64,000 bases of DNA. Source: Niallia taxi (lineage in GTDB: Bacteria; Bacillota; Bacilli; Bacillales; Cytobacillaceae). The stretch lies in NCBI RefSeq assembly GCF_032818155.1, contig NZ_CP102589.1:1908001-1972000 (forward strand), written 5' to 3'. The position numbers and the translations under genes are program-made. Every line of letters starts with the position of its first letter. Positions within the stretch are counted from its first letter, which is position 1. The notes below the pieces were generated by a model, which did not search any database, was not told the DNA's origin, and saw only the letters and a program-made list of their open reading frames with translations. Shown here one piece after another: positions 31,348-62,430 of the stretch.

Positions 31348-31373
31348 TGAAACTTTTTTACCTACCATACGTA
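31348..31373 (+). promoter_or_regulatory. sigma-W-type ECF promoter of the AIM24 gene
   Basis: TGAAAC at 31348-31353, a 16-base spacer and CGTATT starting 31370. This is the sigma-W consensus (TGAAAC, 16, CGTA). It lies 41 bases before the AIM24 start. The spacer begins with a T-run, as in many ECF promoters. Confidence 0.65.
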
Positions 31374-47826: not shown

Positions 47827-48003
47827 GAAAAATTAAGGAAAGTCAGCTATTATTTTTATATAAATGCTGTATAAATAGTAGCTGAATAATTGAACTTTAT
47901 TATATACTTGAATAGTACTGTAAATTATTAAGCAAGAACCATTTTAAAGAGATAGAATATTCTTTACATGGATTAGCAGGACCTTGAAAGTGAGGTGTTT
48001 ACA

Positions 48004-48626: not shown

Positions 48627-48653
48627 TGAAACCCTTGGAGCAGTAGAAACGTA
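48627..48653 (+). promoter_or_regulatory. sigma-W-type ECF promoter of the terD-terC unit
   Basis: TGAAAC at 48627-48632, a 17-base spacer and CGTA at 48650-48653, 37 bases before the terD start. B. subtilis yceC-H, the related module, is known to be controlled by ECF sigma factors and sigma-B, which supports this reading. Confidence 0.65.
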
Positions 48654-48689
48654 GATAATTAAAATGAGAAAAAAATGGAGGAATTAATC

Positions 48690-49271
48690 ATGGCAATTAG
48701 TTTATCAAAAGGACAAAAAGTGGATTTGACAAAAGGAAACCCAGGATTAACAAAAGTGGTTGTTGGTTTAGGATGGGACGTTAATAAATACGATGGCGGT
48801 AACGATTTCGACTTAGATACATCTGTATTTTTGTTAGCGGAAAATGGAAAAGTAGCTTCTGACGCTGACTTTGTCTTCTACAATAACACAACTGGCGGTA
48901 ACGGATCTGTCGTTCACTCAGGAGATAACCGTACGGGTGATGGAGACGGTGATGACGAATCAGTTATTATCGATTTGCAAGGTGTACCTGCAAGTGTGCA
49001 AAAAATTGCCTTTACGATTACTATTCATGAAGGTGACGCAAGAAACCAAAACTTCGGACAAGTTTCTAATTCATATGTGCGCATCCTAAATGAACAAAAT
49101 AATGAAGAGCTTATCCGTTATGACTTAGGAGAAGACTTCTCTATCGAAACTGCATTAGTTGTCGGAGAATTATACCGTCACAACGGCGAATGGAAATTTA
49201 GCGCTACTGGCAGCGGCTATCAAGGCGGCTTGGCAGCGTTAGCGACTGATTTCGGACTACAAGTAGGCTGA
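48690..49271 (+). CDS. TerD family protein 1 (YceD-like)
   Basis: TerD proteins bind calcium and are made under stress. The 193-residue product has the standard start [17 protein letters not shown] and the acid Ca sites [12 protein letters not shown] (about 36-47) and [15 protein letters not shown] (about 77-91). It ends [18 protein letters not shown]. Length equals B. subtilis YceD. The ATG at 48690 follows TGGAGGAATT. A sigma-W-type promoter precedes it and terC follows 127 bases on. Confidence 0.94.
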
Positions 49272-49398
49272 TTTTAGATAAAGGGGAAACTCTTTTCGGT
49301 TGCATTTCCATTTGATTGCAGGCTGAAAAAAAGAAAAAGCAGCATGATTGTTTAATCATGAATGAAGAAGAGCAATCAATTAGGAGGAACATACACGA

Positions 49399-50181
49399 AT
49401 GGGAATTATTGAAAGCATTATCCATACATACTCTCAGTTTTTTAATTGGGAAATGTGGGGTCAGGTACTAACAGATCCAGTAAGCTGGGGATATATCGGA
49501 ACACTTGTTATTCTTGAAGGGTTATTATCAGCAGACAACGCACTTGTGCTTGCTGTTATGGTAAAGCATCTTCCGCCGGAAAAACGAAAAAAAGCACTTT
49601 TCTATGGTTTGCTTGGCGCATACATCTTCCGTTTCATTGCAATCGGAATCGGTGTATTCCTTATTAAATTATGGTGGGTTAAAGTGCTTGGTGCAGCGTA
49701 CTTGGCATATTTGGCAATCAAGTACTTCATTGATAAACGCAAGGAGAAGAATGCATTAGAAGGAGATGGCGAAGAAGAATCACATGGTATTAACCAAAAT
49801 GGTCTTTTAATTCGTCTTTTCGGAACATTCTGGGGTACAGTTATCGCAGTTGAAATGATGGATATTGCTTTTTCTGTAGACAGTGTTCTTGCGGCATTCG
49901 GTGTCAGCAACCAGGTTTGGGTACTGCTTGTCGGCGGTATGCTTGGAGTCTTGATGATGCGCGGTGTTGCAGGTGTATTCTTGAAGCTTATTGATCGTGT
50001 ACCAGAATTGGAAGGCACAGCATACATTTTGATTCTGATTATTTCAGTGAAAATGCTTTTAGGTGTTGTTGGTGTTCATGTACATCACTACGTATTCTTC
50101 GGCATATTAGTTATCGCTTTTGCCGCGACATTTGTTGTTCATAACCGCAACAAGAAAAAAGCAGAGCAAGGCGAAGCATAA
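49399..50181 (+). CDS. TerC family membrane protein (YceF-like)
   Basis: The 260-residue membrane protein has seven to eight helices. The TerC family carries acidic residues within its helices, seen in LEGLLSADNALVLAVMV (about 40-56) and AVEMMDIAFSVDSVLAAFG (about 150-168). Members are linked to manganese export, protein secretion or stress; B. subtilis has YceF and MeeF/MeeY relatives. The start follows TTAGGAGGAAC. A terminator closes this two-gene unit. Confidence 0.93.
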   Translation: MGIIESIIHTYSQFFNWEMWGQVLTDPVSWGYIGTLVILEGLLSADNALVLAVMVKHLPPEKRKKALFYGLLGAYIFRFIAIGIGVFLIKLWWVKVLGAAYLAYLAIKYFIDKRKEKNALEGDGEEESHGINQNGLLIRLFGTFWGTVIAVEMMDIAFSVDSVLAAFGVSNQVWVLLVGGMLGVLMMRGVAGVFLKLIDRVPELEGTAYILILIISVKMLLGVVGVHVHHYVFFGILVIAFAATFVVHNRNKKKAEQGEA

Positions 50182-50194
50182 GATAGTTAAACTT

Positions 50195-50235
50195 AAAGAA
50201 GGGATAAAGACATCATGTCTTCCCTTCTTTTATTT
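50195..50235 (+). terminator. terminator after terC
   Basis: AAAGAAGGGA pairs with TCCCTTCTTT around a 16-base loop, followed by TATTTCC. It separates terD-terC from the biosynthetic cassette. Confidence 0.75.
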
Positions 50236-50429
50236 CCTTTCCTCCATTCTAATCTCCTCATTGTAGCAAGGATAAATCAATCCAATTGATTACAAAATTC
50301 CCTATAAAAAGAAATATATTAATGCAAGAAGCACTATATTATATTAAAATAAATACGTATTAATTTTATAAAAATATTATCCGAATAATCTGAATATATA
50401 GGTATTATAGTTGAATGGAGTTAGTGAAA

Positions 50430-51629
50430 ATGAAATTATTTGCTGATTTAAATGATAAGCAACGAGAAAAGCTTTTTTATAAAAAACCTGAAGAGTTATC
50501 TATTAATTCAGATAAGGAAATTTTATCCTATGCACTTGCTTCCACCCTGTATATGCCTGCAACAAGACCGAATATATATCATGACCTTCTCATAAAGAAG
50601 CATTCTGGTTTAACTTCTATGGTTATATGCCTGGAGGACTCTATTGGTGATCATGAAGTGGAGCTTGCTGAAGAGAAATTAAAAGAAGAGCTTATCAACA
50701 TCAAGACAAGCATCGAGCAAGGCGTTTTATTAAAAGCTGAGATGCCAATGATTTTTATTCGCATCCGTTCTGTTGAGCAGTTTTTGAGACTGATGGATTC
50801 CCTCCATGAGTGCATCCACTTATTAACAGGAATTGTCATTCCTAAATTTGATGCAGAAGTAGGAAGTATTATTTTGAAGGAATTGGAGGCATATAATAGC
50901 ATAGGAAATTTGCTATATGCTATGCCAATCTTAGAGACGAAAAGAATTATAGAAAAAGAAACTAGACTAGAAGAATTGTTGTCGATTAAGGCAGTGCTCG
51001 ATACATATAAGCAACTTATTTTAAATGTCAGGATTGGCGCGACTGATTTTTGTGGTTTATATGGGATAAGACGGAATACAGATACGACCGTATATGATGT
51101 GACCATTATTCGTGACTGCATCACTGATATCATTAATGTGTTTTTGCGTGCAGATAGCCCTTATGTCGTGTCAGGACCTGTATGGGAATATTTCTCTTCA
51201 AAAGAAAGAATGCTGATCCCACAGCTGCGGGAAACGCCGTTTAGGAAAAGATACGGCAAGGCTGGCATGCAGATGAGGACACAGCTAATTGACAGACATA
51301 TGGACGGCTTGATAAGGGAAGTGCTAATGGATATTACTAACGGTCTAACTGGAAAAACAATCATCCACCCATCCCATATTAAGCCTGTTCAAGCATTAAA
51401 CGTGGTCAGCTATGAGGAATACTTAGATGCTGCAAATATCATTGCAAGCAATAATGGAGATATAGGGGTTATGAAAAGCTCCTTTTCCAATAAGATGAAC
51501 GAAATAAAGCCACATTTTTATTGGGCACAGAAAATCATGCTAAAATCTAGAGTTTATGGGGTGTTCCATGAAGAATTTACATACATTGACTTACTCAAAC
51601 AAGAAAATTTCGTTACCAATCCTAAATAA
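50430..51629 (+). CDS. HpcH/HpaI-type C-C bond lyase of the Ter biosynthetic cassette
   Basis: The 399-residue TIM-barrel enzyme resembles citrate lyase beta subunits and the C-C_Bond_Lyase family tied to ter operons. Visible parts are LYMPATRPNIYHDLL (about 41), MVICLEDSIGDHEVELAEE (about 66-84) with the metal Glu/Asp, FIRIRSVEQF (about 111-120), the conserved IPKFDAEVG, and IHPSHIKPVQALN near 310. The likely reaction is aldol cleavage or condensation of an acyl or sugar-like unit. ATG 50430 follows TGGAGTTAG. Its last 62 bases overlap the next gene. Confidence 0.85.
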   Translation: MKLFADLNDKQREKLFYKKPEELSINSDKEILSYALASTLYMPATRPNIYHDLLIKKHSGLTSMVICLEDSIGDHEVELAEEKLKEELINIKTSIEQGVLLKAEMPMIFIRIRSVEQFLRLMDSLHECIHLLTGIVIPKFDAEVGSIILKELEAYNSIGNLLYAMPILETKRIIEKETRLEELLSIKAVLDTYKQLILNVRIGATDFCGLYGIRRNTDTTVYDVTIIRDCITDIINVFLRADSPYVVSGPVWEYFSSKERMLIPQLRETPFRKRYGKAGMQMRTQLIDRHMDGLIREVLMDITNGLTGKTIIHPSHIKPVQALNVVSYEEYLDAANIIASNNGDIGVMKSSFSNKMNEIKPHFYWAQKIMLKSRVYGVFHEEFTYIDLLKQENFVTNPK

Positions 51630-52926
51630 ATTAAAAATGCATATTGAAATTACGGAAAACCCATTTGAACTGGAGGTACAAGAACTGTTTCAAATGGCGG
51701 CGAGAATTAATAAAAAAAGATCCTTTTTATTCGTCAGCAAGCTACTAGGAAAACATATTCCTATTAAACCACAATTAGGAATGTGGACTGGCTTTGCGCT
51801 TGCTGCCAGATATGAAGAATTAAAGACTGGAGCTGTTTCTTCTAATAAAGAGGTATTGCTGGAAGCCTATTATGACAACATTGCCAGCTTTCGTGATGAA
51901 CCGATTATTGCCAAGGAAATAGCAAGCCCAATTATCATCGGATTTGCAGAAACGGCAACAGCGCTTGGCCATAGTTTTTATAGGGCATTTTCTCATGCGT
52001 CCTTTTTTCATACAACAAGAGAATTAGTGGATGGCATGGACTCCATCATCTCATTTGAGGAGGAGCATTCCCACGCCACCTCACATCGCTGCTATATAGA
52101 TGCCTCCATGCTTGATACACAGAGAGAGGTTATTCTCGTTGATGATGAACTGACAACAGGCAATACGGCCATAAATATCATTCGAGATATACAGGCGAAA
52201 TATCCGCGCACAGAATATACAGTTGTCTCTATCCTTGATTGGCGTTCAAAGGAAAATGAAGCAAAGCTTATAAGTCTACAACAAGAGCTTGGTATAACTG
52301 TCCGCTGTGTCAGCTTATTAAAGGGTGTTTTCCAATTAGACGGTGAGCTGCAAAATATCGGTGACAAACAAGAAGCAACAGGCATATCAACAAATAATGT
52401 GGAAACAGAATATATTAGCTTGAACGAATTTACGAAGGATAGTTTGCTTCCTTTTTCCTCAAGAACGATGCTTGGCGAACGCAATCAAAACCCTTATTTA
52501 GAGAATACAGGCAGATTTGGTCTCAACTCAAGTGAAATAGGTTGGGTCAAGGAAGCGGCCTCCTTCCTTGCGCAAAAGCGCATTGGCAATCAGACACTTT
52601 CCATAGGAACCGGCGAGTTCATGTATATTCCAATGAAGATTGCATCTCTGATGGGGGATGGAGTCTACTATCAATCAAGCACGAGAAGCCCTATATATCC
52701 TCATAATGAACATTATTATGGCGCAAAAACAGCCATTCACTTCCTTAATCCGGAAGATGTTAGTATTGACCACTATTTATATAATTTAATGGAATATCCA
52801 TATGATGATATATTTGTATTTTTTGAGAGGAAACTAGACGAAGCCAGGCTCCAGCCTCTAATTGAGAAGCTTTCGGGCACGGGAGTTAGAAAAATAAACA
52901 TAGTGTATGCAGCGGGGGGTAAGTGA
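51568..52926 (+). CDS. phosphoribosyltransferase with C-terminal TRSP domain
   Basis: The 452-residue product has a PRTase_2-type domain. The PRPP loop is VILVDDELTTGNTAINI (about 188-204), preceded by FAETATALGHSFY (about 126). The C-terminal TRSP domain (about 300-450) is named from the motif STRSPIYPHNEHYYG (about 372). Such pairs occur only in Ter-linked biosynthetic clusters, predicted by Anantharaman, Iyer and Aravind to make a nucleoside-like metabolite. The ATG at 51568 follows GGGGTG and lies well inside the lyase gene. Confidence 0.87.
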   Translation: MKNLHTLTYSNKKISLPILNKLKMHIEITENPFELEVQELFQMAARINKKRSFLFVSKLLGKHIPIKPQLGMWTGFALAARYEELKTGAVSSNKEVLLEAYYDNIASFRDEPIIAKEIASPIIIGFAETATALGHSFYRAFSHASFFHTTRELVDGMDSIISFEEEHSHATSHRCYIDASMLDTQREVILVDDELTTGNTAINIIRDIQAKYPRTEYTVVSILDWRSKENEAKLISLQQELGITVRCVSLLKGVFQLDGELQNIGDKQEATGISTNNVETEYISLNEFTKDSLLPFSSRTMLGERNQNPYLENTGRFGLNSSEIGWVKEAASFLAQKRIGNQTLSIGTGEFMYIPMKIASLMGDGVYYQSSTRSPIYPHNEHYYGAKTAIHFLNPEDVSIDHYLYNLMEYPYDDIFVFFERKLDEARLQPLIEKLSGTGVRKINIVYAAGGK

Positions 52927-52927
52927 G

Positions 52928-54043
52928 ATGATACAGAAAGCTGGTCAGAGAAGGTTTGGATCGTATAAGCAGGAGGATGTCGTTTTTCTATTAAAGGACT
53001 TAAGTGACTTCAGCTTAGAGGGGAATACAGAAGAGCGGGAAAAACGCATTCAAGGTGGTCAGCATTATAGTGAGACATTGCCGATTGAATACAATCCGCC
53101 AGAACACTATTTGCAGGTTTTTTGGGAAACTCTTGCAGAATACAAGGCAAAGGTAGCCTTTTGCACGGCAGTCGTTGCAGAGCAAATATACAGTAGAAAA
53201 GGGCAGAACACAGTCCTCGTCTCCCTTGCAAGAGCAGGCACACCAATCGGTATTTTGATGAAGCGATACTTACAATTTAAATATCGTGAAAACATTCCTC
53301 ATTACAGCATCTCTATTATCAGGGATAGAGGAATAGATGAAAATGCGCTTAACTACATTTTAAAATCTCATCCTGGCTGCAATATTCAATTTGTAGACGG
53401 CTGGACAGGTAAAGGAGCCATTTCAATTGAACTGTCAAAGTCTGTGCAAGTCTTTGAAAAGAAGTATGGCATAAAGCTTGATGATAGTCTTGCTGTTGTC
53501 GCAGATCCTGGCTATTGTACGGATTTGTTTGGCACTAGAGAAGACTTTCTTATTCCAAGCGCGTGCCTTAATTCGACTGTTTCAGGCCTTGTCAGCAGAA
53601 CAGTCCTTAATGATGCGTACATAGGAACAAATGATTTTCATGGCGCCAAGTATTATCAAGAATTAGAAGAATATGACGTTTCAGAACAGTATTTAGAGCA
53701 AATCGCCTCGCAATTTACACATATTAACGAACATGAATTAGAACAAGCGATTGCAGAAATCAAAAATGCAGAAGCAGTTTCCTTCAAAGGAATGAAGGAA
53801 GTTTTGGAGATAAAGGAAGCCTTTGGCATTGAAACAGCCAATTACGTTAAGCCAGGGGTAGGCGAAACAACAAGGGTTCTTTTAAGACGTGTGCCATGGA
53901 AAATCTTAATGAAGGATCCTGACAGTCCTTATGTACGTCATATCATCATGCTGGCAAAGGAACGGAATGTAGAAATAATCCCATATCCAAATATGAGTTA
54001 TACATGCTGTGGTCTCATTAAAAAAGTGGGTGAAGCGAAATGA
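52928..54043 (+). CDS. StiP/PRTase_1 family protein
   Basis: The 371-residue product is of the family labelled 'cysteine protease StiP' in older databases and PRTase_1 later. It contains EHYLQVFWETLAEYKAKVAF (about 61-80), LVSLARAGTPIGILMKRYL (about 98-116) and VDGWTGKGAISIEL (about 157-170), the PRPP-binding-like loop. VVADPGYCTDLFGTREDFLI follows at about 193. These features favour a phosphoribosyltransferase over a protease. The ATG lies one base after the previous stop, with GGGGGTAAG as ribosome site. Confidence 0.85.
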   Translation: MIQKAGQRRFGSYKQEDVVFLLKDLSDFSLEGNTEEREKRIQGGQHYSETLPIEYNPPEHYLQVFWETLAEYKAKVAFCTAVVAEQIYSRKGQNTVLVSLARAGTPIGILMKRYLQFKYRENIPHYSISIIRDRGIDENALNYILKSHPGCNIQFVDGWTGKGAISIELSKSVQVFEKKYGIKLDDSLAVVADPGYCTDLFGTREDFLIPSACLNSTVSGLVSRTVLNDAYIGTNDFHGAKYYQELEEYDVSEQYLEQIASQFTHINEHELEQAIAEIKNAEAVSFKGMKEVLEIKEAFGIETANYVKPGVGETTRVLLRRVPWKILMKDPDSPYVRHIIMLAKERNVEIIPYPNMSYTCCGLIKKVGEAK

Positions 54044-54861
54044 TAATGTTCGCATCCGATTTGGACAGAACGTTAATTTATTCAAAACGTGCCCTTTCTG
54101 AAATGGGCACACCGCTTAATAAAGAAATGGTCCCTGTTGAAAAAAGAAATGGAGAAAATATCTCTTATATGAAGGAAACAGCACTTAATCTTCTTAAGGA
54201 ACTTGCTAGTGAGGCCCTTTTTGTGCCTGTTACGACAAGGACATATGAGCAATATAAACGCATCTTTATTTTTGCAGAGGAAATACCAGTGACATATAGT
54301 GTGACTTCAAATGGGGCGAATATCCATTATAAAGGGGAATTACTTTCTGAATGGACAGAAACAGTACAAAGGAAGCTTGCAGAAGAGTGCAGTCAAAAAG
54401 AGGATTTAATGAAACTTCTGCAAGGGTATAAGCTCCCTGGTAAACTGAAAATCGCTGATGATCTATTCTTTTATTTTATATTAGAGGAGCAAATAACTTC
54501 GGATACAAAAAAACAGATTGGAGATATTGCTGCCGAAAATGGCTGGAAGCTGTCATTGCAAGGAAGAAAACTGTACTTCATGCCATCACCTGTTTGTAAG
54601 GGAGAAGCAGTAAAGTTTATTCAAAAGCGAGAGGGCATAACACAAATAGCAGGTGCAGGAGATTCCTTGCTTGATGTCCCTTTATTGAATGTTTGTACAT
54701 ATCCATTCATGCCAAGGCATGGGGAAATGGCTTCAGAGCTGATGAGCACAAATACATTTACATTCACGGAATTTCAAGGAGCAAATGCTGGTGAAGAGAT
54801 AATTAAGTCTGTTCACCAGCTTATAAAGAGAAGTTCTACTCTTCTGCAGGAGAGTCTTTGA
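54040..54861 (+). CDS. HAD-family phosphatase of the Ter biosynthetic cassette
   Basis: The 273-residue HAD hydrolase has motif I FASDLDRTLI (D7 and D9), motif II VTTRTYEQY (about 64), a cap region, motif III Lys in CKGEAVKFI (about 187) and motif IV AGAGDSLLDVPLL (about 205-217). It most resembles sucrose-phosphatase-like enzymes. Its likely task is to remove phosphate from the product of the two PRTases. The ATG overlaps the previous stop by 4 bases. Its end overlaps a convergent membrane gene by 26 bases. Confidence 0.87.
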   Translation: MIMFASDLDRTLIYSKRALSEMGTPLNKEMVPVEKRNGENISYMKETALNLLKELASEALFVPVTTRTYEQYKRIFIFAEEIPVTYSVTSNGANIHYKGELLSEWTETVQRKLAEECSQKEDLMKLLQGYKLPGKLKIADDLFFYFILEEQITSDTKKQIGDIAAENGWKLSLQGRKLYFMPSPVCKGEAVKFIQKREGITQIAGAGDSLLDVPLLNVCTYPFMPRHGEMASELMSTNTFTFTEFQGANAGEEIIKSVHQLIKRSSTLLQESL

Positions 54862-55090
54862 GCCATTTGGAAAGTAAATAATAAATGGTAGAGAAAACTG
54901 TATAGAAAACGAAGAAGGCTACTGCACCGACTAACAGGGAATGAAAGCTAATTGAAACGGCGAAACTGATCATGATACCGATGAGAAAGAGGTCAATGTA
55001 CAGGAAAGACTTGGAGCAAAGTACTTGCTCCATTTGTTTCATGTCATCTTCCATTTGATGATAAGACATTTTTCGAAACAGTAATCTCAT
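54836..55090 (-). CDS. small two-helix membrane protein in the Ter module
   Basis: The 84-residue protein is on the minus strand, opposite to all its neighbours. A basic N-terminal part (MRLLFRKMSYHQMEDDMKQM) is followed by two hydrophobic helices (about 32-50 and 53-74) and a short acidic tail. The ATG at 55090 has AGGTG 9 bases before it. It overlaps the 3' end of the HAD gene by 26 bases. I know no family for it. An antisense effect on the cassette is possible. Confidence 0.6.
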   Translation of the reverse strand: MRLLFRKMSYHQMEDDMKQMEQVLCSKSFLYIDLFLIGIMISFAVSISFHSLLVGAVAFFVFYTVFSTIYYLLSKWLKDSPAEE

Positions 55091-55254
55091 AATAAACACC
55101 TACTTAGCCTAAATTACTGTATTGTATGCATTTTGCAAAAAATGGTGAAAGATAGATAGTTTTTACATAAAGGATTTTCCCTTCAGACTTTAGATTAGCA
55201 GCAGGCTTAAGCATGACCTTATTAGGGGGAAAACAAAGTTTAGTTGTAGAAAAA

Positions 55255-55280
55255 TGAAACTTTTTGGACAAATAATCGTA
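55255..55280 (+). promoter_or_regulatory. sigma-W-type ECF promoter of yceG-telA
   Basis: TGAAAC at 55255-55260, a 16-base spacer and CGTACT from 55277. It lies 116 bases before the yceG start, inside a 306-base gap (55091-55396) that otherwise holds no gene. A weaker TATAAA near 55338 could be a vegetative alternative. Confidence 0.65.
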
Positions 55281-55396
55281 CTAATTTATATAGGGTAAAT
55301 ATTTAGCAATATTAATATACTGTGCTATGATACATATAAAGCTTTACGCGAAATGATTATTTAAAAAAGAGCAGTTCGTTTAGGGAAGTGGGAAAA

Positions 55397-57040
55397 ATGA
55401 ATGTTAATTTACACACACTGACTGGGCAGATACTTCCTGTATCGATGGAAAACTGGTATACAACTATGCAACAGCCGCTGAATAGCCGGCCTTTTTATAA
55501 GGAAGAAAACGGAACCATTACCTTTGGGCAAGTGTTTGTAAAGCTTCTAGGTGTGCCAATGGATGAAGATGAATATTATAATCAGCTTTATGATTGGGTT
55601 CATTCAGAAGACAATAACTTAGAACTGATTAGCAATAATCACTTGAACCGTGTTTTGGATAACAAGCATTTCCAAGCGATTCAAAAAGTACTGAATTTAC
55701 TTCATGAACAAAATCTGTCTGTTAATCGGTTTGTAGCCTTTTTGGACGGAGAAAACCTTATTTTGAAATCAACGAGTCCATCCATACATCGAAAATTGAG
55801 GGAAAGCATGATAAAGCTTGTCGAGCGCTTTGCCGAAACAGAACCAAATGGCTTAAAGAGCAGCGAGCTACGCAGAGTGCTTGTTGATGTTATTAAATGG
55901 TCTATCAACCACCTTCAGCCAAGTCTTGAGGCATGCGGTGAAAGTGATAGACTTCCGCAATATTTGTGGTATGGTACTGGCAATAAAAGCCAAGCTTATT
56001 TTTTAACATATTTGTCGCAAATCGGTTGTGATTTGGTGATTGCAAGTCCAAATGGTGACGATGTTTTCGAACAAATTGCAGGTGACTTGCAGCCTGTTTT
56101 TATCCATAGATATCCGCAGGAAAAAGAGGCGGAGGAATTTCCAACGGAAAAACGGAGAAGGACAGCAACTGTTGCTTACAGAGCGTCAAAAGAAATTGAG
56201 AGCATTTTAAATCATGAAGGTTCTGGCCTTTATAAACCATGGCAGCTGAGGGATTACACACCAATGTCCGTAACGCTCAAGACGACTTATGACGAGCTGT
56301 TTTTGCTGGAAAAAGAAAAAGCGATGATTCGCCCAAATTTTGAAGTAAGTAATGGAGAAGTGAAAATTCCTACTATTTTTGCTAAAGTATTTGGTGTAAG
56401 CGGCAATAGGAAAGAATATTGGGATAGGATGCATACACTTGTAAATGTGGAACATGCCCTATTGATAAAGAATTTTCCTTTTACAAGAGCAATCGTCAGC
56501 GATTATCGTTTTCATTATCGAAATGCTCTTGGCAAAGATGGGAAATTGGACATTGACAAAATGATGGCATCGAACTATTGGAGCTATGGCCGTTTGCCAA
56601 TAGGATTGCAAAAAGGAATCGCATCAAGCATCCGGTCTATTTGCCATAAGCCTCGTCTGCAGTCATTGCCGAATGAAACAGAAGAAGAAGCAGCTATTTT
56701 CCTGTTCACACAAGGACTAATCATACCTGCTGACATCTTAAAGCTGCTGCAGAAATTTGACTATTCACAGGATGTTCCAAGCATCATTTTGTATAAGACA
56801 GAGCAAAACGGCATTTTTACGAGAGAGGATGCAGCGATTCTGCTTTTATTAAATGCATTCGGAGTGGATATTATTCTTTATAATCCGCCAGGCCATATGG
56901 ATATTGAGCCGTTTATTACTGAAGGCTCCTATGATTCCCACTGGCTCGAGGATGTTGTGTTTGAACTGGAATATAAGGAAGAGTCGTTCTTTAAGAAAAT
57001 GATACTGAATGGTTTTAAAAAAAATAGAAGGGGAGATTAG
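55397..57040 (+). CDS. yceG: YceG family protein of the Ter stress module
   Basis: The 547-residue product fits B. subtilis YceG (YceG_bac family, listed as a component of the Ter 'biosynthetic module'). It has two similar halves: RPFYKEENGTITFGQVFVKL at about 32 and RPNFEVSNGEVKIPTIFAKV near 315 share a pattern, which suggests an internal duplication. I see no catalytic motif I can name. The ATG at 55397 follows GGGAAGTGGG. telA starts 2 bases after its stop. Confidence 0.88.
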   Translation: MNVNLHTLTGQILPVSMENWYTTMQQPLNSRPFYKEENGTITFGQVFVKLLGVPMDEDEYYNQLYDWVHSEDNNLELISNNHLNRVLDNKHFQAIQKVLNLLHEQNLSVNRFVAFLDGENLILKSTSPSIHRKLRESMIKLVERFAETEPNGLKSSELRRVLVDVIKWSINHLQPSLEACGESDRLPQYLWYGTGNKSQAYFLTYLSQIGCDLVIASPNGDDVFEQIAGDLQPVFIHRYPQEKEAEEFPTEKRRRTATVAYRASKEIESILNHEGSGLYKPWQLRDYTPMSVTLKTTYDELFLLEKEKAMIRPNFEVSNGEVKIPTIFAKVFGVSGNRKEYWDRMHTLVNVEHALLIKNFPFTRAIVSDYRFHYRNALGKDGKLDIDKMMASNYWSYGRLPIGLQKGIASSIRSICHKPRLQSLPNETEEEAAIFLFTQGLIIPADILKLLQKFDYSQDVPSIILYKTEQNGIFTREDAAILLLLNAFGVDIILYNPPGHMDIEPFITEGSYDSHWLEDVVFELEYKEESFFKKMILNGFKKNRRGD

Positions 57041-57042
57041 CA

Positions 57043-58146
57043 GTGAATATGCAATCATCTAATTCTTCAAGCAATGAACACCAAGTTATAGATGTTTTAA
57101 CGGAAAATAAGGTTTCTGAAATCAAGCTTGCCTTAAGAAATGAACCAGAAGTACAGCAGCTGGCAAAATCTATTGATGAAAGAGACCAAATTCAAATACT
57201 AGAGTTCGGAAAAGAGCCTGCTGTTCAGATTTCTAAATTCTCCGATCAAATTCTCAGCAACATGAGAACAACAAAAGTCGAAGACTCAGGAGAACTGTTG
57301 AAACAGCTCGGCAGGATTATGGATAAGTTTGATAAAAAAGACTTTGAGCAATCCTCAAAGGGACTGTTTGGAAAGCTGTTCAAAAAAAGCGAAAAAATCA
57401 TGGAGAAGCTTTTTGGTAAATACCAGTCAATGGGATCGGAAATTGATAAGGTTTATGTTGAAATTTCCAAATACCAAACGGAGATGGTTGATTCGACAAA
57501 CATGCTTGACAATATGTATGAGCAAAACTATCAATATTATTTGACGCTTGAGAAATATGCCGTTGCAGGTGCGATGAAATCAGATCAGCTAAAACAAGAG
57601 GTGCTTCCTCCAATTGAAGCAAAAGCAATCCAAGGAGATCAGCTTGCTTCGATGCAGCTTGATACATTACGAAATGCGATTGAATTGATCGACCAGCGTG
57701 TGTATGATTTGGAAATGGCCAAAATGGTAGCATTGCAGACAGCACCGCAAATAAGACTGCTGCAGCGCGGAAATACGAAATTAATCGGAAAGATTAACTC
57801 TGCTTTTGTAACGACAATTCCTATTTTTAAAAACGGATTGATTCAAGCTGTTGCAGCAAAAAGACAGAAGCTAGTAGCAGACAGCATGAGCGAGCTTGAC
57901 CGTCGTACAAATGAGATGCTTGTCCGCAATGCACAAAATATTTCACAGCAAAGTGTGGATATTGCAAGAATGGCAGGTGCGCCAAGCATTAAAATTGAAA
58001 CAATCGAGGAATCCTGGAATATCATTATGAAGGGTATGCAGGAAACAAAATCGATTGAAGAAGAAAATAAGAGGCTCCGTGAGGAAGGTACGAAAAAACT
58101 GGAGCAGCTTCACAGTAATTTTAAACAAATGAAATTAAAAGGCTAA
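57043..58146 (+). CDS. yceH: TelA/YceH toxic-anion resistance protein
   Basis: The 367-residue protein is helical and of the TelA family. The family core is seen in IQILEFGKEPAVQISKFSDQ (about 48-67) and LGRIMDKFDKKDF (about 88), followed by long coiled-coil helices to the end. Named for tellurite resistance, it more broadly accompanies Ter proteins in envelope stress and lantibiotic tolerance. The start is GTG at 57043 after AGGGGAGATT. It ends before a small hairpin and two terD genes. Confidence 0.92.
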   Translation: MNMQSSNSSSNEHQVIDVLTENKVSEIKLALRNEPEVQQLAKSIDERDQIQILEFGKEPAVQISKFSDQILSNMRTTKVEDSGELLKQLGRIMDKFDKKDFEQSSKGLFGKLFKKSEKIMEKLFGKYQSMGSEIDKVYVEISKYQTEMVDSTNMLDNMYEQNYQYYLTLEKYAVAGAMKSDQLKQEVLPPIEAKAIQGDQLASMQLDTLRNAIELIDQRVYDLEMAKMVALQTAPQIRLLQRGNTKLIGKINSAFVTTIPIFKNGLIQAVAAKRQKLVADSMSELDRRTNEMLVRNAQNISQQSVDIARMAGAPSIKIETIEESWNIIMKGMQETKSIEEENKRLREEGTKKLEQLHSNFKQMKLKG

Positions 58147-58150
58147 TAAT

Positions 58151-58171
58151 CAGGGCAGTTCTGCTGCCCTG
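58151..58171 (+). other. intercistronic hairpin between telA and terD
   Basis: A perfect 8-bp stem CAGGGCAG/CTGCCCTG with a TTCTG loop has no T-run after it. It may protect or process the mRNA and so set the level of the terD genes against yceG-telA. Confidence 0.5.
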
Positions 58172-58206
58172 ACATAAAAAATACATAATACATAGGAGTG
58201 GATAAT

Positions 58207-58821
58207 ATGGCAATCAATCTGCAAAAAGGACAAAGAGTGGACTTGACGAAAGGCAATCCTGGTTTATCAAAGATTATGGTAGGTCTTGGCTGGGATCCAG
58301 TTCAGCAAAATAAAGGCGGCGGACTGTTTGGTTCTTTATTTGGCGGCGGTTCTGGCGGAGCAAATGTTGACTGTGATGCATCAGTATTAATGCTTGATGA
58401 GAACGGCAAAGTAAAAGGAAACAGTGATGTTATTTACTTTGGCAACTTGAAAAGCAGAGATGGCAGCATTCAGCATACTGGCGACAACTTGACTGGAGAC
58501 GGCGCAGGGGATGATGAGCAAATTTTTGTGGAATTAAGCCGTGTTCCTGCAGCAGTACATAAGCTTGTTTTCATTGTTAATATTTATGATGCGGTGAAAA
58601 GAAAACAGCATTTCGGAATGATTCAAAACGCATTTATCCGCATTGTTAATCCAAGCTCTAATGAGACATTGCTTCACTACAATCTGACAGATAACTATAA
58701 TGGCATGACAAGCTTAATTGTTGGTGAACTTTACAGACACGGTCAAGAGTGGAAGTTTGGCGCAATTGGTTCTGGAACATCTGCTGGCAGTCTTGGTGAA
58801 GTAGTAAAATCTTATTCTTAA
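58207..58821 (+). CDS. yceC: TerD family protein 2 (YceC-like, glycine insertion)
   Basis: The 204-residue TerD paralogue has a Gly/Phe-rich insertion GGGLFGSLFGGGSGG (about 36-50) in the first calcium-site loop, before VDCDASVLML. The second site reads HTGDNLTGDGAGDDE. B. subtilis YceC has the same kind of insertion. It keeps the start [17 protein letters not shown]. The ATG at 58207 follows TAGGAGTGG. The third terD follows after 32 bases. Confidence 0.93.
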   Translation: MAINLQKGQRVDLTKGNPGLSKIMVGLGWDPVQQNKGGGLFGSLFGGGSGGANVDCDASVLMLDENGKVKGNSDVIYFGNLKSRDGSIQHTGDNLTGDGAGDDEQIFVELSRVPAAVHKLVFIVNIYDAVKRKQHFGMIQNAFIRIVNPSSNETLLHYNLTDNYNGMTSLIVGELYRHGQEWKFGAIGSGTSAGSLGEVVKSYS

Positions 58822-58853
58822 TATTAGCAAGGGATTAAAAGGAGGAGAAAAGA

Positions 58854-59432
58854 ATGAGCATCAATCTATCAAAAGGACAAAGAATTGACCTGACGAAAAC
58901 GAATCCAGGCTTAACGAGAGCGATAATCGGATTAGGCTGGGACACAAATCGCTATGACGGCGGTGTTGATTTTGACTTGGATGCATCAGCATTTCTGGCA
59001 GATGCAAACGGCAAAGTGATAAATGATGTAGATTTCATTTTCTACAACAACCTTGCCCATCCGAGCGGCGGTGTGGAGCATACAGGCGATAACCGGACAG
59101 GCGAAGGCGATGGGGATGATGAACAAATCGTCATCGACTTTTCTAAAATTCCAGCACACGTACATAAAGTTGGCATTGCTGTGACGATTCATGATGCAGA
59201 TTCTAGAAGTCAAAATTTTGGTCAGGTTTCTAATGCGTTTGTTCGTGTGGTGAATGAAGAAACAAATGTAGAAATACTTCGATATGATTTAGGCGAAGAT
59301 TTTTCTGTGGAGACAGCTGTTGTCATTTGTGAATTGTACAAGCATAATGGCGATTGGAAGTTTAATGCTATTGGCAGCGGATTCTCTGGCGGACTTGCAG
59401 CACTATGCCGCAACTACGGATTGGACGTATAA
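58854..59432 (+). CDS. TerD family protein 3 (YceE-like)
   Basis: The 192-residue product is canonical Ter[20 protein letters not shown], then [18 protein letters not shown] and [15 protein letters not shown] calcium sites, ending [19 protein letters not shown]. It is closer to the first paralogue at 48690 than to the second. The start follows AAAAGGAGGAGAA. It is the last gene of the module, before a terminator. Confidence 0.94.
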
Positions 59433-59497
59433 CTCCTGGCTGTCAAACAGACAGAGTGTATGAAATAAACAGCAAGCTGAGCAGCCTTTCAGAAAAG

Positions 59498-59533
59498 AAG
59501 CCTTTCTTGTTTCTTTTTTGAAGGGCTTTTTTT
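59498..59533 (+). terminator. terminator after the Ter module
   Basis: AAGCCTTTC pairs with GAAGGGCTT (one G-T pair), with a 13-base loop, followed by TTTTT. Confidence 0.78.
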
Positions 59534-59663
59534 GAGGGAATTGCCAATATTTTTAATGCGGCAATAAATCTATCATTCTATGCTATAATCTAATATATTA
59601 TTAATCTCCTCCTCATCAAACATACTAGTAATACATCGGAGAGCAAAGATGGAGAGAGTAAGG

Positions 59664-60371
59664 ATGAAGCATTTAAAAAAGATCATGCCATTTTTTATGA
59701 TTGGCATTGTTTCGCTACTGATGGGGAATTCCCAGCAGGAAACAGATGGAATTATGCTGAAAGATTATCCTGTCCAATCGATATTAAAGGATAATCTTTC
59801 AGCATCTGAACAGATAAACCTGCAATCTATTATTTCGCTTCCGAAAGGAACATTTGATCAAATGGAAGCAGCAGTAATTGTGAAGCGTCTTAATAGGCTG
59901 CCATTATCTCTTTTATCAAAAATAGAAGAAAAGGGAATTAAAATAAAGCTATTTACTGGAAAGCTAACCGATAATCCGTCAGCAAAGCAATTTGCTGGAA
60001 TAATACCAAGAGGGTATCGCACGACAAAAACGTGGGATGATGTGCCAGGAATCGGCGGCGGACAAACGGTGCTTGTAAAGATTGGCTCAAGTAATAAAGG
60101 GAGCGGACACGGTTCAGTTAACCTGGAGCTTCATGAACTGGCTCATTCCATTGACTATAAGGTACTGAATTATTATAGTAAAAAGGAACAATTTATTTCG
60201 GCTTGGAATAAAGAGAAAGTAAGTCTTTTTCCACAAAGACCGTATTTTTTGAACTATCCTGAGGAATACTTTGCGGAAACCTTTGCCATGTATTATTTAG
60301 GCGGTTCATATAAAGAATCATTAAAATTGTTGGCACCTTTAACATATAATCAGATTGCCAGCATTAAATAA
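59664..60371 (+). CDS. lethal-factor-like (ATLF) secreted metalloprotease
   Basis: The 235-residue product begins with a signal-like helix (KHLKKIMPFFMIGIVSLLMG). The mature part carries a zinc protease site: HELAHSIDY (about 157-165) with two His ligands and the catalytic Glu, and EEYFAETFAMYYL (about 200-212) with the third ligand. This HExxH plus E-x-FAExF layout is that of anthrax lethal factor and Pro-Pro endopeptidases. It is probably secreted and its substrate is unknown. ATGs at 59649 and 59664 both have ribosome sites; the second gives the usual signal peptide. It lies between the Ter module and thyA. Confidence 0.8.
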   Translation: MKHLKKIMPFFMIGIVSLLMGNSQQETDGIMLKDYPVQSILKDNLSASEQINLQSIISLPKGTFDQMEAAVIVKRLNRLPLSLLSKIEEKGIKIKLFTGKLTDNPSAKQFAGIIPRGYRTTKTWDDVPGIGGGQTVLVKIGSSNKGSGHGSVNLELHELAHSIDYKVLNYYSKKEQFISAWNKEKVSLFPQRPYFLNYPEEYFAETFAMYYLGGSYKESLKLLAPLTYNQIASIK

Positions 60372-60402: not shown

Positions 60403-61197
60403 ATGAAGCAATATTTAGATCTATGCAGACATGTCTTGACAACAGGAACGAAAAAAGAAGATCGTACAGGAACTGGCACTGTTAGTACTTTCGGCTATCA
60501 AATGCGTTTCGATTTAGCAGAAGGTTTTCCGTTGATCACGACGAAAAAGCTCCACTTGCGTTCGATTATTCATGAGCTCCTATGGTTCTTAAATGGGGAT
60601 ACTAATATCAAGTACTTACAAGATAATAATGTTCGCATTTGGAATGAATGGGCAGATGAAGAAGGCAACCTAGGACCAGTATACGGCCATCAATGGAGAT
60701 CATGGACATCAAGGGATGGTAGCACGATAGATCAGATAGCTGAATTGATTCACACAATAAAAAATAACCCAGATTCGCGCAGAATGATTGTTAGTGCATG
60801 GAATGTCGGTGATATACCTGAAATGGCATTGCCGCCTTGTCATTGTCTGTTTCAGTTTTATGTAGCAGACGGAAAATTGTCTTGCCAATTGTACCAGCGT
60901 TCTGCAGATGTATTTTTAGGAGTGCCTTTTAATATCTCCTCATATGCTTTACTTACCTATATGATTGCCCAAGTATGTGATCTTGAAGTTGGGGAGTTTA
61001 TCCATACATTTGGTGATGTCCATATTTATAATAATCATATAGAGCAAGTGGAGCTGCAGCTTACAAGAGAACCGAAGCCACTGCCGTATCTTGTGCTGAA
61101 TAAAGAAGTTAAGGACATTTTCTCGTTCAAATATGAAGATTTTGAAATTGTGAACTATGAAGCACACCCACATATTAAAGGAGTTGTAAGTGTATGA
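60403..61197 (+). CDS. thyA: thymidylate synthase
   Basis: It makes dTMP from dUMP with methylene-tetrahydrofolate. The 264-residue length equals E. coli ThyA and B. subtilis ThyB. Motifs: EDRTGTGT near 19, the loop [14 protein letters not shown] with the catalytic Cys (about 146), [19 protein letters not shown] (about 160-178), and the dUMP site HIYNNHIEQ near 207. It overlaps dfrA by 4 bases, and DfrA regenerates the folate that this enzyme oxidises. Confidence 0.97.
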
Positions 61198-62403: not shown

Positions 62404-62430
62404 TGAAACAAAAATAGGTCTAGAAACGTA
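62404..62430 (+). promoter_or_regulatory. sigma-W-type ECF promoter
   Basis: TGAAAC at 62404-62409, a 17-base spacer and CGTATA from 62427. It lies 26 bases before the start of the gene at 62456, and 8 bases separate it from the AAGGAGG site. The transcript leader would be very short. Confidence 0.62.

Follow-up and report, generated by a model that had tools for sequence, protein, structure and literature searches.

This study concerns a block of Ter-type stress genes at positions 48627..59533 of a 64,000-nucleotide stretch of Niallia taxi DNA (NCBI RefSeq assembly GCF_032818155.1, contig NZ_CP102589.1, positions 1,908,001 to 1,972,000 of the forward strand), called the window below. Every gene that had been named in this block beforehand, in a sequence-only reading, is found intact and in place by the list of open reading frames (ORFs) and by Pfam: three TerD paralogs, TerC, YceG and TelA surround a C-C bond lyase, a phosphoribosyltransferase (PRTase)-TRSP protein, a StiP/PRTase protein and a HAD phosphatase, and with all families present the description of the block as a complete Ter-type module, with its four enzymes in a clean cassette, is borne out. 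The order on the + strand is ypjP, TerD, TerC, C-C_Bond_Lyase, PRTase_2-TRSP, StiP-PELOTA_1, HAD, a double YceG_bac, TelA, TerD, TerD, an ORF with an ATLF domain, and thyA. The first TerD gene, terD1, occupies 48675..49271 (PF02342, 286.7 bits; likely start 48690) and is followed by terC, of the TerC family and YkoY type, at 49399..50181 (PF03741; TIGR03716 at 263.7 bits, cut-off 138.5). The cassette begins with a lyase of the HpcH/HpaI (CitE-like) TIM-barrel type at 50415..51629 (PF15617, 402.6 bits; likely start 50430), the 3' end of which is overlapped by PRTase_2 at its likely start, 51568; this second enzyme carries a C-terminal TRSP domain and spans 51556..52926 (PF15609, 230.5 bits; PF12500, 119 bits). 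StiP, a PRTase-fold domain joined to a PELOTA/L7Ae-like domain, lies at 52907..54043 (PF11202, PF15608), and the HAD-IIB phosphatase, with a weak Pfam match and the motifs DxDxT and GDxxxD, at 54040..54861. There follow yceG with two YceG_bac domains at 55388..57040 (PF14266, 356.3 bits; likely start 55397), telA at 57043..58146 (PF05816, 358.5 bits), terD2 at 58198..58821 and terD3 at 58854..59432 (PF02342, 259.2 and 280.9 bits). The likely start codons were derived from ribosome-binding sites and homolog lengths. Among named proteins the best hits come from Niallia, and YceG has 98% identity to a protein of N. taxi. On the same strand, ypjP (at 47995) and thyA (at 60403), both recognized by Pfam, flank the block, and the place between them is referred to here as the slot.

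The slot was surveyed in 81 genomes, N. taxi and 80 relatives. A full-length lyase is encoded in 30 of these (34 have some match, four of them short paralogs only), YceG passes its cut-off in 34 (any match in 35), and all 30 lyase genomes are among the YceG carriers; both proteins are present in each of the 13 genus members, N. taxi included. With the window's proteins as queries, loci were mapped in the 29 other lyase genomes, in four genomes with YceG only and at 20 further ypjP loci, two of which come from G057 and G078. The block lies downstream of ypjP in 27 of the 30 lyase genomes (N. taxi included), in the order terD-terC-lyase-PRTase_2-StiP-HAD-yceG-telA-terD-terD, the deviations being a single downstream TerD in G028 and G047 and a missing HAD gene in G045; thyA lies beyond the block at 25 of the 27, and the other two stretches stop short of its position. 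In the other three lyase genomes the arrangement differs: in G057 and G078 the block lies at another place, as terD-terD-terD-terC-cassette-yceG-telA, and G023 has terD-terC-yceG-telA-terD-terD in the slot with the enzymes about 180 kb away. Among the YceG-only genomes, the slot holds terC-yceG-telA in G014 and G038; G033 has yceG-telA-thyA on a short contig, and G070 has terD-terD-yceG-telA outside the slot. At 18 of the 20 other ypjP loci ypjP and thyA fall in one stretch; ten have no detected ter gene between them and eight have terC, two of these with TerD as well. As terC is present at eight of these 18 loci, it looks, on this comparison, as though terC at least is an old resident of the slot.

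The sequence-only reading had proposed that the block was acquired or rearranged in this lineage, with a clean cassette newly placed in the ypjP-thyA interval, and it had itself pointed to an ancestral block, or to enzymes unlinked in relatives, as what would speak against it. The empty slots of some relatives (the ten ypjP-thyA loci without a detected ter gene) and the cassette of other descent in G023 favor such an acquisition, but a slot and gene order common to all 13 genus members and to 27 of 30 lyase genomes do not, and the comparison in related Bacillaceae largely bears out ancestry; the enzymes, as described below, are linked. Across the 27 slot loci pairwise protein distances follow those of ypjP (r of 0.93 for the lyase, 0.94 for PRTase_2 and 0.85 for StiP), the three enzymes are mutually correlated at 0.87-0.91, and in a FastTree tree of 43 concatenated cassettes those of the 27 slot loci group in a single clade. 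The base composition of the block is like that of its flanks (GC content 0.389, compared with 0.391 upstream and 0.372 downstream). Marks of an island that would indicate recent gain at the N. taxi site, namely absence from close relatives, foreign composition and tree conflict, were sought and not found. The displaced cassette of G023 falls outside the slot clade and adjoins that of G348 in the tree; G023 therefore looks like a single case of natural replacement, in which the native cassette was apparently lost and one of different descent acquired. The location between ypjP and thyA was correctly read, and the new insertion was not: in 15 of the best 80 named loci described below, counted by eye, the cassette holds the same position between terC and yceG although the block lies elsewhere, and it was therefore not newly inserted there. 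Judged from these genome comparisons the locus is inherited within this Bacillaceae branch and is not a recent acquisition, and the acquired-block proposal appears very improbable.

The Ter genes in the slot are preceded by two sequences of the type recognized by extracytoplasmic function (ECF) sigma factors. A scan of the window located TGAAAC-N17-CGTA at 48627..48653, upstream of terD1, and TGAAAC-N16-CGTA at 55255..55280, upstream of yceG, both on the + strand. The pattern TGAAAC-N16/17-CGTA is what we take to be the sigma-W consensus, no copy of which was found in the text of PMC3498285. The window holds four matches to TGAAAC-N15..18-CGTA, compared with 0.29 expected from shuffles; the other two exact sites are at 31348-31373 and 62404-62430 (+). 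When exact TGAAAC sites with CGTA or CGTC were counted upstream of each gene in the related loci, terD1 had one in 27 of 32 and yceG in 26 of 34, compared with 0.15 and 0.10 loci expected when mononucleotides are shuffled, and the counts elsewhere were 1/30 for the lyase, 0/32 for terC, 0/30 for PRTase_2, 0/34 for telA, 1/32 for terD2, 2/32 for terD3 and 0/29 for thyA. In the 27 slot loci alone the site is present at terD1 in 26 and at yceG in 24, and over 534 kb the real pattern occurs 56 times versus 8, 5 and 3 times for three altered patterns. A second set of loci comes from a scan of named genomes with a StiP alignment; of its 594 confirmed stretches the best 80 were kept, so that this set leans toward close relatives. 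Of these 80, 28 are slot loci, and the site is present there at yceG in 23 and at the first TerD gene in 26; outside the slot it is present at yceG in none of 23, from which it follows that the second site is a feature of the slot lineage. SigW is encoded in the genome (334.9 bits), and a table in PMC3498285 lists B. subtilis yceC-H as controlled by sigma-W/B/M. Between terC and the lyase lies a terminator-like hairpin followed by T (50195..50230, + strand; -17 kcal/mol, z -4.15), which was detected by folding and is absent from the list of the pattern scan. Hairpins are visible by eye in the same gap in many Bacillaceae relatives, for example at L044 8990-9070; the gap hairpin carries a recurring GGGAACAGACA-TGTCCGCTCCC-like sequence and may be a repeated palindrome. 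A second terminator-like hairpin, from the pattern scan, stands 3' of terD3 (59483..59527, + strand), and a fold of 59430-59520, which cuts this hairpin short, gave z -0.88. The left edge of the block, 48627, is exactly the start of the first promoter sequence, and the right edge, 59533, lies just past the second hairpin. What is new here, as predicted from these patterns, is the presence of conserved sigma-W-type promoter sequences before terD1 and yceG and not before the enzymes, and the block is probably built of three transcription units.

The linkage of the four enzymes was followed through a phylum sample of 299 genomes (N. taxi included; presumably Bacillota). StiP occurs in 15 of these, PRTase_2 passes its cut-off in the identical 15, and a strong lyase (>300 bits) is likewise found in 15, of which 14 are StiP carriers. 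The order lyase-PRTase_2-StiP-HAD on one strand is kept in 13 of the 14 other StiP carriers (14 of 15 with the window itself), and TerD genes lie near the cassette in all 14. The exception, G269 (L106 4369-7285), has PRTase_2-StiP-HAD with TerD, TelA and YceG and no lyase; both its PRTase_2 and its StiP are very divergent. Conversely, the strong lyase of G175 occurs in a different gene context, in a genome with neither StiP nor PRTase_2. That gene (L111 9687-10829) lies outside any ter context, beside genes for a phosphonopyruvate decarboxylase, a PrpD-type protein, an aldo-keto reductase and fumarase subunits, a neighborhood which is a possible clue to the substrate class of the lyase. Among the best 80 named loci, which partly overlap the sampled genomes so that the two linkage counts are not independent, 78 have the four-gene order and 79 have TerD; the remaining two are L175, with PRTase_2-StiP-HAD at a locus that is cut short, and L189, where StiP and HAD only were detected. 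In G045 the HAD gene is missing between StiP and yceG, the one place inspected. PRTase_2 and StiP were never seen apart in the loci surveyed, L189 excepted, and the four-enzyme cassette is nearly always one unit.

Catalytic residues are intact in all four enzymes across alignments of 42-44 loci, their roles being those we presume for the respective families. The lyase keeps E74, D75, R116, R118, K144, E174, D211 and H318 in 43 of 43 loci, and the HAD protein, which matches the trehalose phosphatase 6d3v at E 2.4e-8, keeps D7, D9, T11, K187, D208 and D212 in 42 of 42. PRTase_2 has a canonical phosphoribosyl pyrophosphate (PRPP) loop, VDDELTTGNT, with both acidic residues. StiP was examined for the same two acidic residues and does not have the pair, D164 being followed by G165 in 124 of 124 homologs; its PELOTA signature is invariant. 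A structural model of StiP (predicted local distance difference test score 81.7, predicted template modeling score 0.86) has PRTases as its nearest neighbors by Z, and by this model StiP is a PRTase-fold enzyme structurally close to ribofuranosyltransferases.

Two other views of the cassette deserve to be weighed against these data. The Pfam/NCBI family name, cysteine protease StiP, would make the cassette partly proteolytic, and C220 (122 of 124 homologs) and H245 (123 of 124) hardly vary, but the structural neighbors are PRTases, and the StiP of G269 has His in the C220 column, with a Cys two places earlier, while all 124 keep R109, D144, D164-GWTG and D200; a protease is hardly credible. 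It has also to be considered that the module mainly defends against phages or plasmids. PMC7824862 describes Ter systems as conferring resistance to phages and xenobiotics, the product of the PRTase/HAD enzymes being the signal, and StiP homologs are found on 2567 of 72,556 plasmid records, many of them from Enterobacteria, and on 3 of 50,697 phage records. PADLOC, however, gave a single 17-bit match for the eight of ten block proteins scanned, and the position of the locus on the chromosome, its vertical inheritance and the sigma-W-type promoter sequences before it together point to envelope stress and leave a mainly defensive role unlikely.

A Ter-dependent stress response system with a biosynthetic module was reportedly described by Anantharaman, Iyer and Aravind in 2012, and to call the present system undescribed, as the sequence-only reading did, was therefore too strong. 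That literature is also said to give the module an ATP-grasp partner, which was not among the 16 region proteins scanned with Pfam. The 2012 system reportedly shares TerD, TerC, TelA, YceG, a C-C lyase, PRTase-TRSP, StiP/PRTase-PELOTA and HAD with this locus, and TerD, TerC and TelA/YceG are here found together with four linked enzyme genes; the slot lineage differs in having TerD at both ends and its own sigma-W-type site before yceG. PMC7824862 restates this system and predicts a nucleoside-like product. The B. subtilis yceCDEFGH operon shares the TerD and YceG families with the locus and is listed as one operon; the control genome matches TerD, YceG and YpjP and not the C-C lyase, StiP or PRTase_2, in agreement with the part of the earlier B. 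subtilis statement by which the yce genes there lack the cassette. TelA is presumably present in B. subtilis as well. The TerC protein of that species is MeeF, formerly YceF, and PMC12096827 describes TerC paralogs as Mn export or metalation proteins. The PRPP-dependent ribofuranosyltransferase and HAD phosphatase pairs CriT-CrpP (Bcs3) and gPRT-PRP offer a further comparison, from which the present cassette differs in its StiP with a PELOTA domain, its two PRTases and its lyase; neither phmmer nor profile searches matched CriT or gPRT to StiP in sequence, the match being structural only. Judged by its gene content, the system is of a known type, and the locus is a member with a lineage-specific layout of two predicted promoters.

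On balance this intact block is probably a standard Ter stress module of the Bacillaceae that has been inherited vertically in the ypjP-thyA slot, is made up of three transcription units and includes a cassette for a ribosylated product. The terD1-terC and yceG-telA-terD2-terD3 arms would each be transcribed from behind a conserved sigma-W-type promoter sequence, and envelope or metal stress would raise both through an ECF sigma factor; the cassette, behind a putative terminator hairpin and without such a site, would run at a separately set level. TerC is by homology a candidate Mn exporter or metal-delivery protein, and TerD and TelA may act at the membrane. In the cassette, PRTase_2 and StiP, a second and non-canonical PRTase with an RNA-binding-type PELOTA domain, could use PRPP to phosphoribosylate an acceptor, from which the HAD phosphatase could strip the 5'-phosphate, and the CitE-like lyase could make or trim a carboxylic-acid part. 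The ribosylated product, either a small molecule or a macromolecule, would then be sensed or used on the TerD/TelA side. Phosphoribosylation of an acceptor from PRPP followed by dephosphorylation is the most likely activity as predicted from the enzyme families, and since the lyase and the HAD protein are each missing in one relative (G269 and G045, respectively), the two PRTases are the likeliest core. A more specific version, in which StiP, taken as a phosphoribosyltransferase that depends on PRPP and has an RNA-binding domain of the K-turn type, would put ribose-5-phosphate on structured RNA or an envelope glycan for the HAD protein to trim, would tie the sigma-W envelope response to macromolecule ribosylation in place of a nucleoside pathway; we consider it quite unlikely.

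Several observations weigh against the vertically carried stress module as set out here. Cassette distances correlate with those of thyA at only 0.46-0.64 (25 loci), but ypjP itself correlates with thyA at just 0.61; the cassette tree was midpoint-rooted and its support values were not printed; and the case of G023 indicates that foreign cassettes can be gained. Only genome position ties the cassette to TerD/TelA: B. subtilis has TerD and YceG without the enzymes, four relatives (G014, G033, G038 and G070) have YceG without the lyase, and several Paenibacillus-type loci have the enzymes without YceG or TelA within the stretch covered. As for the promoter sequences, a site is also present upstream of ypjP in 5 of 30 loci, just 16 of 48 first TerD genes outside the slot have one (among the best 80 of 594), and what drives transcription of the cassette was not found.

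Other features of the region lie outside these questions. A small antisense ORF in the gap between the HAD gene and yceG (54836..55099, - strand; no Pfam match, hydrophobic by eye) occurs in all 12 genus relatives, in two more slot relatives and in 15 of the best 80 named loci, and G045 has a 122-aa antisense ORF at the corresponding position. Neither this ORF nor the next one was pointed out in the sequence-only reading. The ATLF-domain ORF between the last TerD gene and thyA (59649..60371, + strand; Pfam ATLF match) has an N-terminus that resembles a signal peptide by eye and may encode a secreted metalloprotease. The gene 3' of thyA is dfrA, a name read from the sequence. Two further TerD matches lie outside the window in the same genome: at G000:C1:98866-102423 a 480-aa TerD protein with a tail that by eye is zinc-ribbon-like and TerB-like, and at G000:C1:483749-487252 a divergent 412-aa TerD-like protein beside what appears by eye to be a WYL-type regulator.

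Ter genes are widespread, and the Bacillaceae slot presents a chromosomal version in which the control elements are laid out, the two Ter arms each having a predicted ECF promoter sequence and the enzyme cassette standing apart. B. subtilis, the usual laboratory strain, by the control searches has Ter arms and lacks the cassette and is a natural recipient for it. The placement of StiP as a PRTase-fold enzyme near the ribofuranosyltransferases, together with its invariant PELOTA signature, suggests concrete classes of acceptor, namely a nucleobase, RNA or a glycan, and these could be distinguished by an assay with labeled PRPP.

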